Source: Fibrobacter sp.
GTDB lineage: Bacteria > Fibrobacterota > Fibrobacteria > Fibrobacterales > Fibrobacteraceae
DNA length: 64,000 bases
Direction of reading: 5' to 3'
NCBI GenBank assembly: GCA_024399065.1
Contig: JAKSIB010000019.1
Span: 1-64,000 of the forward strand
Position 1 is the stretch's first letter, and the number at the start of each line of letters is the position of its first letter. The position numbers and the translations under genes are program-made. The notes below the pieces were generated by a model that was given only the letters and a program-made list of their open reading frames with translations, had not been told where the DNA came from and did not search any database. Shown piece after piece: positions 2,953 to 19,509 of this stretch.

Positions 2953-4689
2953 ATGGAAAGTGCAAGAAAAACAATTAACCAGTTTCTAAAGAATAGCTAC
3001 ACCGAAAAGGAATTGAAATCCGAACTTTTCAAAGCCGGTGTTGCCGCTATGGAAGAAGGCTGGACCTTCATGGACGCAAGTTTCCAACTTGGTGGAAAAG
3101 CCAAAGACGAAGGTATGGATCCGGACGAAGTCGAACAGACTCTTCGTCGTGCTTTCGCAGCAGAAAAACGTTCTGAAAGACCTGAACCCGCACCTTCCGC
3201 TGCTCCAGCACAGCAGCCCGCAGCCCAACAGCAGGCCGAAGCCCCCACAATAGCCATGCCGGTCATTTCCCCGCTTTCCGCCGGAATGATTTCCATGGAA
3301 CAAATGTTGGCTCTTGGTCTGGATACCCAGTCCCTGGAATTGTTGCAGAACTTCAAGATTGACCCGGAAGCTCTTTCCATTCCTTGGCCCGCCGCAGACT
3401 GGCGTAAGGACTTGGCAAAGCTCCTGGAAGCCACCTTCGAACCAGATGAAACCATCGAATTCAAGGTTTCCAACACCCCCACTAGCACAGAAGAACTTGT
3501 TTCCAACATCGTCGGACAGGATGACTCCATCAAGAAGATCATGAAGAGCCTGGATAGTCCCGAAGGCGCTCTTCTCTGCATCAACGCTACCAAGGGTGGC
3601 GAAGAAGCAACCGACGAAAGCTGGCATTACCGTTACGTCGTTATCGACAACCCCAAGATGTCCTTGGCCAAGCAGTTGGCTTACTACAAGGCATTGAACC
3701 TCCCCTGCGCCGCCTTGGTGAACACCGGTGCAAACTCCGTGCAGGCCTGGGTCAAGATTCTCGCCAGCGACGAAGAAGAATACAACGAACGCGTTGACTT
3801 CCTTTTCAAGACCTTGGATTCCCAGGGTTTCAAGGTGGACTCCTCCAACCGCAATCCGCACATGATGGTCCGTATGCCGGGCGTGCTCCGCGGTGGTAAG
3901 CAGCAATACCTGATTGGCCTCGAACAAGGCGCCAAGAACTTCAAGGAATGGCAGGAATGGGTTGAATACTCCCTGGATGGCAAGCCGCTGATTGAACTGG
4001 CTAGCGATACGGAAGAAGCCCCGAAGAAAGACCAGTCCATCGTGGAAAACATGCTGCGTACAGGGGAATTCTTCCTGCTCACAGCACCCCCGAAGAGCGG
4101 TAAGTCCTTAGCACTCATGGACTTGGGCCTTTCCATCTGCTACGGCGAAGACTGGTTCGGAAACGCAACTTCTTCTAACGACGTCTTGTTCATCAACTTT
4201 GAACTTACCAAGTCCGTGTTCCTGAACCGCCTCTACATGCTGGGCGCAAAGAGAGACCTTAACGCAAGTACTCCGAAGTTCGGTTTCTTGAACCTCCGCG
4301 GTACGGCACTCTCCCCCATCGAAACCGCCCAGCTTATCGCAAAGAGAATTCAAGGTGCGAAGCGTCTGGAAAACCACGACTACCGCGTAGTGGTCATTGA
4401 CCCGATTTCCGCAGTGCTCCACAACCCCAAGTCCACCCGACTGAACGGCGCTCCCCACCAGATCTTGATGCAGATGATCGACACAATCATCGCACTCACC
4501 GGCTGCGCCGTGGTTTCCACTTGCAACCTGGACGAATACCCGTACCTCGAAGCTCGCGCCGACAGCGTCATGAAGTTGACCCCGGTTGAAGGTAGCTTGA
4601 ACCAGTACCAGATCAACGGCACCTTCCGTGAATTCCCGAAGATGCTGGCCCGTGAATGTTCCTGGATCTACCCGAGATTCCTGGTCTAA
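2953..4689 (+). CDS. Inactivated AEP primase-polymerase domain fused to RepA-like AAA ATPase
   Basis: A 578-residue protein in three parts. Residues 1-70 are a small helical domain, and 75-100 a Pro/Ala/Gln linker. Residues about 146-345 align in order with the archaeo-eukaryotic primase-polymerase domain of phage and plasmid replication proteins. Landmarks are RYVVIDNP, a QLAYYKALNLPCAALVNTG segment and NPHMMVRMPGVLRGGKQQ. The usual catalytic residues are missing: the motif I acidic pair is replaced at 231-233 (IDN), the motif II histidine of SxH is Q264, and NPSR is NPHM. Residues 370-525 form a RecA/RepA-type (AAA_25) ATPase with an intact Walker A (APPKSGKS, 378-385) and a Walker B ending at D483. 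It probably binds nucleotide, and perhaps nucleic acid, without making primers. The ribosome-binding site AGGAAGGGA is strong. First gene of a plus-strand run. Its cellular role is unknown. Confidence 0.7.
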   Translation: MESARKTINQFLKNSYTEKELKSELFKAGVAAMEEGWTFMDASFQLGGKAKDEGMDPDEVEQTLRRAFAAEKRSERPEPAPSAAPAQQPAAQQQAEAPTIAMPVISPLSAGMISMEQMLALGLDTQSLELLQNFKIDPEALSIPWPAADWRKDLAKLLEATFEPDETIEFKVSNTPTSTEELVSNIVGQDDSIKKIMKSLDSPEGALLCINATKGGEEATDESWHYRYVVIDNPKMSLAKQLAYYKALNLPCAALVNTGANSVQAWVKILASDEEEYNERVDFLFKTLDSQGFKVDSSNRNPHMMVRMPGVLRGGKQQYLIGLEQGAKNFKEWQEWVEYSLDGKPLIELASDTEEAPKKDQSIVENMLRTGEFFLLTAPPKSGKSLALMDLGLSICYGEDWFGNATSSNDVLFINFELTKSVFLNRLYMLGAKRDLNASTPKFGFLNLRGTALSPIETAQLIAKRIQGAKRLENHDYRVVVIDPISAVLHNPKSTRLNGAPHQILMQMIDTIIALTGCAVVSTCNLDEYPYLEARADSVMKLTPVEGSLNQYQINGTFREFPKMLARECSWIYPRFLV

Positions 4690-4718: not shown

Positions 4719-6089
4719 ATGTACAAACAGCCTAAAAAGAATTTTTCTAGTCGTCCTGTAAAATACGACAGACTAAACAGCAGCCGCGGCTCTCTCGGCC
4801 GTAATCTCAGCCGTCTTAACGAAGGCAAAGTCGTTGACAATCAACGAGATAAAGAAGTTCAACCTAAGCCGACAGTCCGTGCTAAGTTGACCTTCGAAGA
4901 CCTTAAGCAGCAACTCACTGCTTGGGTCTCCACCGAAAAAATCCCTGGAAAAATTCAGGCTTGGTACACCGCCGACGCACAGGCAGAAAACGCCGATTGG
5001 CGCATCCTCAAGACCGTTCAAGGCGAACACGAAAAGCTTTCCATTGAAGCTCCTAGCCACGAAATGGAAGCTCCGGAAATCGTCACCAAGATTCTTGAAC
5101 AGTTGAAGAAGGACCACCTCCGCATTTTCAGCAAGGCTCTTCGTCAGATTTGGTTCCGCGCTGCAGGAAATGGAAGCTACGCACTCCTCGTCCAGGTAAA
5201 CCTGAAAGGCCGAAACTCCGCACACGGTTACAAAACTTTCATTGACTTCCTGGAACGTAATTGCCCTGAAGTCTGCAGTTGCCATCATATCCAGTGCCTT
5301 CCCGACTATTTGTTCGATCCCGCAAGCACCCAGGCCATGAAGGTTGAAGCCAAGGCCGCATTCGGCAACGATTTCATTTCCATCGGTAATTCCGGTTCTT
5401 ACATGCATGTGCTGGACTGGGCTCCACGAATTCGCGATGTCTGGTATGGCCTCCCCCTCCGCATCGAAAACGCAATCCACCCCAATCCGGAAGACTGTTT
5501 CTTTGAATTCTATTCCGGCAGTGGCTACGTCAGCTCCATGCTTGCAAACCAATTCAAGCGAGTGGACGCCATGGATTGCCGCGAATACGCCATGCTTTCT
5601 TCCCGAAAGAACGCCCGCGGCCTCATCAGCGAAAACATGCACTTCCATCGCGGCCACGTCGAAGCAGACTTTTTCCCGAAGTTCTTTAACAAGAAGGAAA
5701 ACGAAGGACGTTGGACTTTCTACTTCAATTTGCCCAATGATGAGACTCTCGCTCCCAGCGTAGAACAGGCCGCAGCACAGGCTCGTCCGGAAAGAATCCT
5801 CTTGCAGACCTCCAACCTGGAAGTCGCTGCCAAGGAAATCAAGAGATTCCGTCGTGAAAGCTACATGCTTCGCAAGAGCATCCCCCTCTATCTGGAACCG
5901 GGAAGCAACAAGTTTGATATGTTGTTCATCTTTGTGCCCGACAGAGCCGGTATTTTGGGTCAAAATCCCGCTATGATGGCAAAATCCCGCAATGTTCAGC
6001 GCCCGCAAGAACGAGTTTCCCGTTCAAATCGCCAAGAACAGCCCCATTTTGCCACTGAAGTACCAACATTTAAGCAAAGAAAAGGTTAA
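4719..6089 (+). CDS. TrmA/RlmD-family RNA methyltransferase homologue lacking catalytic residues
   Basis: A 456-residue protein whose C-terminal half has the Rossmann fold of the TrmA/RlmC/RlmD uracil-5 methyltransferases. The SAM-binding strand-loop is FFEFYSGSGYVSSMLA (261-276), followed by an acidic ribose-binding strand and an N-A-R segment. Where active members have DPPR this protein has NLPNDE (337-342), and where they carry the catalytic cysteine (SCNP) it has LLQTSN (361-366). The end of the family pattern (DMFPxTxHVE) survives only as LYLEPGSNKFD. The N-terminal 55 residues are basic and disordered-looking, as is the C-terminal tail. It may still bind SAM or RNA, but uracil methylation is unlikely. 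It lies 29 bases after the AAA ATPase gene and 31 bases before the LysM gene, so cotranscription is likely. Confidence 0.65.
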   Translation: MYKQPKKNFSSRPVKYDRLNSSRGSLGRNLSRLNEGKVVDNQRDKEVQPKPTVRAKLTFEDLKQQLTAWVSTEKIPGKIQAWYTADAQAENADWRILKTVQGEHEKLSIEAPSHEMEAPEIVTKILEQLKKDHLRIFSKALRQIWFRAAGNGSYALLVQVNLKGRNSAHGYKTFIDFLERNCPEVCSCHHIQCLPDYLFDPASTQAMKVEAKAAFGNDFISIGNSGSYMHVLDWAPRIRDVWYGLPLRIENAIHPNPEDCFFEFYSGSGYVSSMLANQFKRVDAMDCREYAMLSSRKNARGLISENMHFHRGHVEADFFPKFFNKKENEGRWTFYFNLPNDETLAPSVEQAAAQARPERILLQTSNLEVAAKEIKRFRRESYMLRKSIPLYLEPGSNKFDMLFIFVPDRAGILGQNPAMMAKSRNVQRPQERVSRSNRQEQPHFATEVPTFKQRKG

Positions 6090-17622: not shown

Positions 17623-19509
17623 ATGCTTATAGATCAAGAACATGCCGGTATTATCATGCGTGCAAAGACCCACCCGCGTCAGTTGGGAATTCCTCTGAGC
17701 CGTTGGGGTCGTAACCTTATCGCTTGCTGCCCGTTCCACTCTCCTGAAGAAACGTCCCTGTTCTTCTACGATGCCCTGGGATACTGGCGCTACCGTTGCT
17801 TGCAGTGCGGCAGCGAAGGCGACTTGGTTGAATTCGTGATGCGTAGCCGTTTCAATGGAATGGAAGAACCGGCAGCTCGCGCAGAAGCTTTGGATTTCCT
17901 CGGAACTTTGGAACAGGAACACGAACCGAAACAGGATGAACATCCTTGGATCAAGGAAATCGGCGGCGAGAAATCCAAGGTCCTTGAAAACTTTGTCCGT
18001 TACTGCCATTGGGCCGCTTGCAAGAGCCCCTCTTCCGCAGAATTCCTGCAGTCCCGTGGATGGAGCATTGGTCAGGCCCAGCTCTACGGTATTGGCTACT
18101 ACAGCGGCGATCCGGAGCCGTTCGTCAGCTACTGTATGCTTTCCGGCATCGAACGCCACCAGATCAGTTTCTATCTGGATAACCTTGAAGCATATCGTGA
18201 ACCGCGCATTACTATTCCGGCCCGCAACTCCAAGGGTTTGATTCACTCCGTGTACGGTCGTGTTCTCGATGACAGCGACAGTAACCACACCTACGTTTCC
18301 TACGCTTCCGGTCCCAGCGACATCCCGTTCAACATCCAGGCTGAAAATGCAAAGCCTATTATTGTTGAAGGTTTCTTTGACGCTTTGACCGCAGATCTGG
18401 CCGGCATTCCGGGCGTAGTTTCCACCATGTACCAGGAACTATCCCTCAGCCACTTGTACAAGCTGAAGGCCTGTGGTGCAGATTCCGTTACTGTGATCCT
18501 CCGCCGCGAACAGGACCGTCGCGAGCAGGAATACCGCATTCAGAAGTATTTGAAGATGGCGGAAGAATTGGATTTGAAGTTCAAGTCCATCGTCCTCCCC
18601 AAGGAAGAAACCGTTGACCTGGTGGTTCGTAAGAATGGCGCAGACCAATTGCTGAATCTTATCCAGCAGACAGAAGAAGACACCGTTCACACCCACCGTC
18701 GTTCCATGCTTTTGCAGGACATCAAGGAAAACTTCGACATTGCCATGGGCTGCCCCCCGGATGTTCGTGTCGGCTATTCCTTAAATACCTTCCCCAAGTT
18801 GACCAAGACTATTGACGGCATCCAGTCCGGCTGTTTCTACGTATCTTCCAAGCCCTTCGGCCTCAAGACCACATTGATGTCCAGTATGGCCCTGGATTTG
18901 CTCCAGAGCAACCCCAAGCTGAAGCTGATCTATATCGCACTAGAAACGCCCCGCCGTCAGATTTTCGATCGTCTTGTAGCAATGCTCATCGGCGAATCTG
19001 TTCTTACCGTTCGTAAGCAGAGCGAAGACGAAGCCATGAATCAGAAGATTCTAGAAGCTACCCGCGAACTGATGGGATTTGTCCGTAGTAACCGTCTTGA
19101 AATTTGGGACGACCAGCCCGAATTCGACAACATGGAATTTATCGCCACCCTCAAGGAAGAAGCCAAGGAACATCCGAACCTGGTTGTATTCATTGATGGC
19201 ATCGACCACTTGAAGATTACCGACTACTTTGATTTGACTGATATTCACGAACGTCGTTCTTCCGTGATTCTTGACCTGTACAAGGCTCTGGACATTCCGC
19301 TGTTCATTGGTGGCGAATTAGTTGACTCCGAACACGGTCTCGTTGGCCCCCGCGCGTACCTCCGCGATTCCGACGCCATCTACTGGTTGGAATCCAAGGG
19401 TGGCAATTTGTTCCTGACAGTGAATTCCAAGCGTTTGGGCAGCAGCCAAGTGTACCAAGGCAACTTGTCCATCGACCCGCTTTCTAACAAGATGCAGGAA
19501 GAAACCTAA
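17623..19509 (+). CDS. DnaG/DnaB-like primase-helicase homologue with decayed active sites
   Basis: A 628-residue protein with the layout of phage-type primase-helicases. The N-terminal CHC2 zinc finger is intact (C36, H39, C59, C62). A Toprim-like region (about 242-345) keeps the first glutamate (E249 in VEGFFDAL), but the DxD metal site is replaced by VILRREQDRR (291-300). The downstream LPxGxDP segment is also lost. The C-terminal third is a RecA/DnaB-type ATPase fold with ALETPRRQIFDRL and a Walker B at FIDGIDHL (524-530). Its P-loop reads KPFGLKTT (410-417), with L414 where the glycine before the lysine belongs. Primer synthesis is unlikely and ATP use is doubtful. The AAGGAA site is good. 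A glycosyltransferase gene follows after 24 bases. Function unknown. Confidence 0.7.
   Translation: MLIDQEHAGIIMRAKTHPRQLGIPLSRWGRNLIACCPFHSPEETSLFFYDALGYWRYRCLQCGSEGDLVEFVMRSRFNGMEEPAARAEALDFLGTLEQEHEPKQDEHPWIKEIGGEKSKVLENFVRYCHWAACKSPSSAEFLQSRGWSIGQAQLYGIGYYSGDPEPFVSYCMLSGIERHQISFYLDNLEAYREPRITIPARNSKGLIHSVYGRVLDDSDSNHTYVSYASGPSDIPFNIQAENAKPIIVEGFFDALTADLAGIPGVVSTMYQELSLSHLYKLKACGADSVTVILRREQDRREQEYRIQKYLKMAEELDLKFKSIVLPKEETVDLVVRKNGADQLLNLIQQTEEDTVHTHRRSMLLQDIKENFDIAMGCPPDVRVGYSLNTFPKLTKTIDGIQSGCFYVSSKPFGLKTTLMSSMALDLLQSNPKLKLIYIALETPRRQIFDRLVAMLIGESVLTVRKQSEDEAMNQKILEATRELMGFVRSNRLEIWDDQPEFDNMEFIATLKEEAKEHPNLVVFIDGIDHLKITDYFDLTDIHERRSSVILDLYKALDIPLFIGGELVDSEHGLVGPRAYLRDSDAIYWLESKGGNLFLTVNSKRLGSSQVYQGNLSIDPLSNKMQEET

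Follow-up and report, generated by a model that had tools for sequence, protein, structure and literature searches.

A gene of the gut bacterium Fibrobacter raises the question of what a bacterium gains from a primase-polymerase whose active site has been rewritten. The gene lies near the start of the window (the whole stretch of DNA that was analysed, 64,000 nucleotides in length) and was taken in a preliminary description to encode an AEP primase-polymerase domain that had lost every catalytic motif, fused to an intact RepA-like ATPase. Its reading frame, encoding 578 aa, corresponds exactly to positions 2953..4689 of the forward strand, and is open and real. The present analysis considers where the protein came from, which of its catalytic residues remain, how it is distributed and maintained, and what it might do.

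Architecture and phage ancestry

The gene and its parts are arranged as follows (aa, amino acid positions).

2953..4689, + strand: whole gene, a diverged, putatively domesticated InversePrim-type primase-helicase of 578 aa (open reading frame; PHROG 2597, E 4.7e-73; 95 of 111 family genomes)
2953..3159, + strand: N-terminal helical domain, aa 1-69 (helices in the model; conserved in Fibrobacterales; not detectably PriCT)
3160..3321, + strand: variable disordered linker, aa 70-123 (pLDDT <50; mean entropy 2.03 over 81-117)
3388..3987, + strand: AEP primase-polymerase fold, aa 146-345 (domain model pLDDT 89; PDB matches 6zp9, 3h20 and 3h25)
3634..3660, + strand: motif I, with D232 (S-2L E85) still acidic and P234 at the D87 position (alignments)
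3724..3744, + strand: motif II, TGANSVQ, with T258 and S262 kept, Lys changed to N261 and His to Q264 (alignments)
3838..3840, + strand: motif III, D296 (S-2L D146), kept here; some other genera have N, S or E
3853..3864, + strand: NPHM (301-304), replacing the phage NPSR (S-2L R154)
3871..3873, + strand: motif IV Arg, R307 (S-2L R157), invariant in Fibrobacteraceae
4000..4518, + strand: RecA-like AAA_25/RepA-family ATPase domain, aa 350-522 (Pfam AAA_25, 9.8e-21; RepA 1g8y, 1.2e-6)
4084..4107, + strand: Walker A, APPKSGKS (378-385; K384 and S385 in 65/65)
4201..4203, + strand: putative catalytic Glu417 (E in 58, D in 6 and N in 1 of the Fibrobacteraceae sequences)
4387..4401, + strand: Walker B, VVVID (479-483; D483 in 65/65)
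4522..4539, + strand: CNLDEY at the position of HH(H/A)SKG in phages and the RepA helicase; the subsequent DRASGSGVFxRDPDA, presumably the Arg-finger region, is missing

The N-terminal domain gave no Pfam match, and hhalign against phage PriCT-2 returned a probability of 0.3%; homology to PriCT is unsupported, and an alignment that had seemed to favour it was circular, as it included phage sequences. The AEP pattern that the preliminary description had recognised in residues 146-345 is confirmed, for residues 150-340, by profile, model, PDB matches to S-2L PrimPol and RepB', and a map of motifs I to IV. The match to PHROG 2597 ('DNA primase', a family of phage proteins) covers residues 153-521, with the E-value listed above. 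An AlphaFold2 model of residues 125-346, the alignment for which included active phage homologues, reached a pLDDT of 89 and a pTM of 0.87. Below 1e-3 it matched just three PDB entries, all of them AEP structures, those of S-2L PrimPol (6zp9, 2e-6) and RepB' (3h20, 3e-5; 3h25, 9e-5). Model, fold search and profile map thus agree on the RRM-like catalytic fold of AEPs. It was a fold search of the domain by itself that revealed the fold: with the full-length model the search was swamped by the ATPase, for which the best PDB matches were RAD51/RadA/KaiC, and a sequence search with a profile of the AEP domain retrieved no AEP. Pfam, NCBIfam and PADLOC all left the AEP part unrecognised, Pfam detecting the AAA_25 ATPase only (350-522), and phmmer of the protein against PDB produced no match.

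Homology to 49 phage records was found by tblastn, and the closest intact relatives are phage proteins of about 30% identity with a PriCT-AEP-RepA architecture, which match the InversePrim family (PrimPol-PV1; Kazlauskas et al., 2018, PMC5862659; PHROG 2597). In a tree of the shared region, which is unrooted and has long branches, every Fibrobacterales copy, the two sister-family ones among them, is separated from the phage copies by a branch with 100/100 support, consistent with a single capture. A catalytically intact-looking InversePrim-type primase-helicase also occurs at positions 1482-3713 of L071, beside a DEAD/type III-like helicase; L071 is a short contig from the Fibrobacter assembly G031, which has 8% contamination. 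The gene shows as much as 94% identity to viral contigs and probably belongs to a phage or prophage. Genera g3 and g8 carry AAA_25 ATPase-only paralogues of about 360 aa (L083, 7666-8739; L084, 2745-3842, reverse strand) whose similarity to the ATPase half of the 2953-4689 protein is weak.

Residues of the polymerase and ATPase sites

The features singled out in the preliminary description (Q264, NPHM at 301-304, Walker A at 378-385 and Walker B at 479-483) are all present in the sequence. Residues of motifs I to IV were mapped by profile alignment to S-2L PrimPol, with residue roles taken from PMC8065100. The motif spacing is the same in the two proteins; five positions are kept (E85=D232, T112=T258, S116=S262, D146=D296 and R157=R307) and four are changed (D87=P234, K115=N261, H118=Q264 and R154=M304). 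The loss of every catalytic motif is accordingly an overstatement, being correct for P234, N261, Q264 and M304, but not for D232, T258, D296 and R307. The arginine of NPSR has indeed been lost, to M304, and is kept in 0/67 sequences, but it is not that of motif IV, which is the retained R307.

The substitutions are fixed across the clade. Of 65 unique sequences from Fibrobacteraceae, 64 have Pro at position 234 and the remaining one has Asn, and with D234 found in 0/67 overall, the acidic pair of motif I (E/D x D/E) is reduced to D232-N-P234 in the window protein and its second acid is missing throughout. Position 264 is Gln in 65/65 Fibrobacteraceae and 2/2 sister-family sequences, so that the motif II His of InversePrim is replaced in all 67. 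The motif III acid D296 is present in the window protein, in most of the genus and in 58/65 sequences overall (elsewhere N, S or E), and the motif IV R307 is present in 65/65. By comparison, D234, S262, H264, D296, R304, R307 and R313 are invariant in 160/160 distinct viral homologues, and the viral-type motif I Asp (234), SxH His, NPSR Arg and HHxxK segment, found in 160/160 of these, occur in 0/67 Fibrobacterales sequences. The two sister-family sequences (L105, 5976-7664; L106, 945-2630, the latter adjoining a ClpC-like gene) have Lys or Arg at 234, Gln at 264, Glu at 296 and Ala at 307. Their motif I reads E-N-K/R and they lack the motif IV Arg, which, as judged from these residues, marks a further erosion of the same polymerase site. 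The altered motif II has a mean entropy of 0.29, versus 0.80 for the AEP domain and 0.34 for Walker A, and together with helix 240-249 is among the most conserved stretches of the protein.

E85, D87 and D146 of S-2L PrimPol have been described as crucial for both polymerase and primase activity (PMC8065100), and a change of motif I from DID to LIL abolished the activity of PolpTN2 (PMC5862659). The His to Gln substitution is by itself no proof of inactivity, because the active RepB' and PolpTN2 families have Gln in motif II (PMC5862659). The strongest argument for a probable loss of catalysis is instead the missing second acid of motif I, taken together with a motif III acid that is conserved in only part of the family.

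In the ATPase domain, Walker A (APPKSGKS) fits [AG]x4GK[ST], and K384 and S385, like D483 of Walker B, are invariant (65/65). At the putative catalytic Glu417, 7/65 sequences have D or N instead. The RepA-type HHxSKG loop and the DRASGSGVFxRDPDA stretch that follows it, both conserved in phages, are missing in 67/67 Fibrobacterales sequences; the HHxSKG part of the phage proteins aligns to HHASKG of RepA 1G8Y, and the deleted segment after it presumably holds the arginine finger of RepA. The loop and segment expected of a RepA-type hexameric helicase are therefore not found. The description of an intact ATPase does not survive this comparison, and 'intact ATP-binding core' is the better term for what the sequence retains.

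The protein can thus be set against three known systems. Like InversePrim, it joins an AEP domain to a following RepA-family ATPase in one chain (Pfam AAA_25; RepA 1g8y), is homologous over 153-521 and keeps, in the genus, the motif III and IV residues; unlike InversePrim, it lacks the second motif I acid, the motif II His and Lys, the NPSR Arg and the HHxSKG/Arg-finger segment. InversePrim has a PriCT domain before the AEP domain and is prophage-borne, whereas the Fibrobacter protein has no detectable PriCT and lacks the phage C-terminal extension, and its gene is chromosomal and vertically inherited. Cyanophage S-2L PrimPol (6ZP9) shares the AEP fold and motif spacing and plasmid primase RepB' (3H20) the AEP fold, the Fibrobacter protein differing from both in its changed catalytic residues and its fused RecA-like ATPase. 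RSF1010 RepA helicase (1G8Y) has the same RecA-like core with Walker A and B, but in Fibrobacter the HHxSKG loop and subsequent segment are absent and the ATPase is fused behind an AEP fold.

Distribution, selection and genomic surroundings

The gene is single-copy and occurs in 95/111 genomes of the family, including 80/80 of the genus; the gene-negative genomes are 12 of genus g4, one of g2 and three that are 71-83% complete. It spans at least eight genera with conserved gene order, which across Fibrobacteraceae runs AEP, RlmD-like, LysM, histidine kinase and response regulator. Outside the family, near-full-length homologues were confined to two genomes, both from a sister family belonging to the same taxonomic order. 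The gene is not mobile, occupying a fixed syntenic host locus rather than the prophage or phage location of InversePrim. Genus g4 and the single g2 genome lack it, so it is not essential throughout the family. Over 270 pairs, dN/dS was 0.092 overall, with values of 0.097 in the AEP part and 0.044 in the ATPase, and such strong purifying selection argues for a changed function, not decay.

The proposal of a new function instead of random decay is upheld by this selection and by the clade-wide fixation of the substitutions. It had been made to depend on an AEP fold, on conserved substitutions and on close relatives without the acidic and histidine residues in other positions: the fold is present, Q264 and the loss of D234 extend to all Fibrobacterales sequences, the viral homologues keep both ancestral residues in 160/160, and no close relative with the acidic and histidine residues was found.

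Immediately downstream in the window (4719-6089, + strand) is a homologue of RlmD/RumA-like methyltransferases that lacks both the catalytic Cys and the DPPR motif; the genuine RlmD of the genome lies at C2. This pseudo-methyltransferase is conserved beside the AEP gene in Fibrobacteraceae, occurs in genus g4 without it, and in the sister family the AEP gene is located elsewhere. The neighbour was rejected as a functional clue, and since the two genes occur apart, the neighbourhood does not fix the function.

A second protein of interest is encoded about 13 kb away at 17623-19509 (+ strand), a CHC2-TOPRIM-DnaB-like protein with a fold unrelated to the AEP-RepA type. Its CHC2 zinc finger is intact, the FDGD motif (DxD) of its TOPRIM domain is lost in 12/12 aligned orthologues, and the GK of Walker A is lost in most. 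An orthologue was present in 26/26 AEP-positive Fibrobacteraceae genomes tested and in 0/11 AEP-negative ones (genera g4 and g2), and in 22/26 both genes were on one contig, 11.6-15.3 kb apart; none was found in the sister family, which carries the AEP gene. The phyletic patterns, which are nearly the same, may reflect one evolutionary event, and the overlap is a lead that does not prove that the two proteins act together.

Possible functions of the protein

A role as the replicative primase was rejected, as genuine DnaG and DnaB are present elsewhere in the genome. The reading preferred here, with a probability of roughly 0.6, is that of a domesticated pseudo-primase derived from an InversePrim-type phage protein and acting as a nucleotide-binding, non-polymerising factor. 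An InversePrim-type primase-helicase would have been captured once by an ancestor of the Fibrobacterales and then domesticated. The fold, the descent from phage, the changed residues and their fixation under selection are shown by the data; loss of polymerisation, retention of a ligand, the switch-like role and a partner are inferred from them. Primer synthesis has most likely been lost, the metal ligand equivalent to D87 being gone and the triphosphate-holding Lys and His having become Asn and Gln. The cleft probably still binds nucleotide or single-stranded DNA without catalysis, because strong selection persists and D232, T258, S262, D296, R307 and R313 are kept, and the sensor role raised in the preliminary description is plausible for such a putative nucleotide or nucleic-acid cleft. 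The RecA-like domain would serve as an ATP-gated switch or scaffold and is probably not a translocating helicase, because the RepA-type DNA-contacting loop and Arg-finger segment are lost while the P-loop is kept. These features suggest a nucleotide-gated binding protein, with a putative ligand and partner, and not an enzyme of DNA synthesis or unwinding, and strong selection on the altered protein points to a new, non-copying job.

Among the other explanations, the least improbable, though still unlikely, is an accessory ATPase of recombination or repair, of the RadA/RepA type that binds single-stranded DNA, in which the AEP domain would be a DNA-binding module and ATP turnover by the RecA domain would remodel DNA or protein partners. 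The RAD51/RadA/KaiC matches of the full model, the retention of both Walker motifs and, in most sequences, of Glu417, and the very low dN/dS of the ATPase all accord with it. It is weakened by the loss of the loop and segment that couple hydrolysis to DNA and by the substitutions of Glu417; moreover, the Fibrobacter LexA box pattern had no match upstream of the 2953-4689 gene, and its conserved neighbours are a pseudo-methyltransferase, a LysM protein and a two-component system, with no repair genes. Less probable again is a divergent primase-polymerase that is still active, in which D232 and D296 would serve as metal ligands and a Gln would act in motif II as in RepB' and PolpTN2. The genus still has two of the three metal-binding acids, along with T258 and R307, and Gln is found in motif II of active families (PMC5862659), so some residual polymerase or nucleotidyl-transfer activity may persist; yet the D87 equivalent is Pro in 64/65 sequences and Lys or Arg in the sister family, which also lacks R307, D296 is replaced by N, S or E in other genera, and all three acids are described as crucial (PMC8065100).

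Marginally more doubtful than residual activity is a decoy against phages, whereby a dead InversePrim relative would co-assemble with incoming phage replication complexes and poison them. Derivation from phage replication proteins, changes at catalytic positions as expected of a dominant-negative form, and the active-looking, viral-contig-related InversePrim gene of L071 would suit such a role, but typical defence genes are patchy whereas this gene is universal in the genus, slow-evolving and syntenic, co-assembly is doubtful at about 30% identity to phage proteins, and PADLOC gave no close match. That the gene is a decaying prophage remnant is highly improbable: phage origin and lost catalytic residues would suit this account, which is contradicted by a dN/dS of about 0.09, by conserved gene order across at least eight genera, by full-length matches without stops in the reading frame, and by the lack of phage genes in the flanks that were read.

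The putative pseudo-primase may not stand alone. Rather tentatively, and with a good deal less confidence, both apparently dead primase-helicases of the locus could form a host-owned module of the Fibrobacteraceae, co-inherited and jointly serving as sensors of nucleotide or DNA state, not as replication enzymes.

The protein is real and conserved, a probable domesticated pseudo-primase of which no description was found in the literature searched; it is InversePrim-derived and, by the defining features of that family, not a member of it. PrimPol-PV1 primases have been described as nearly exclusive to mobile elements (PMC5862659), and here a relative has become fixed in the chromosomes of most members of a bacterial family, with a polymerase site that has been both rebuilt and conserved, which provides a testable example of a replication pseudoenzyme. 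Considered alongside the other apparently dead primase-helicase close by, it hints that selection at this locus has more than once favoured proteins that keep binding while losing catalysis.
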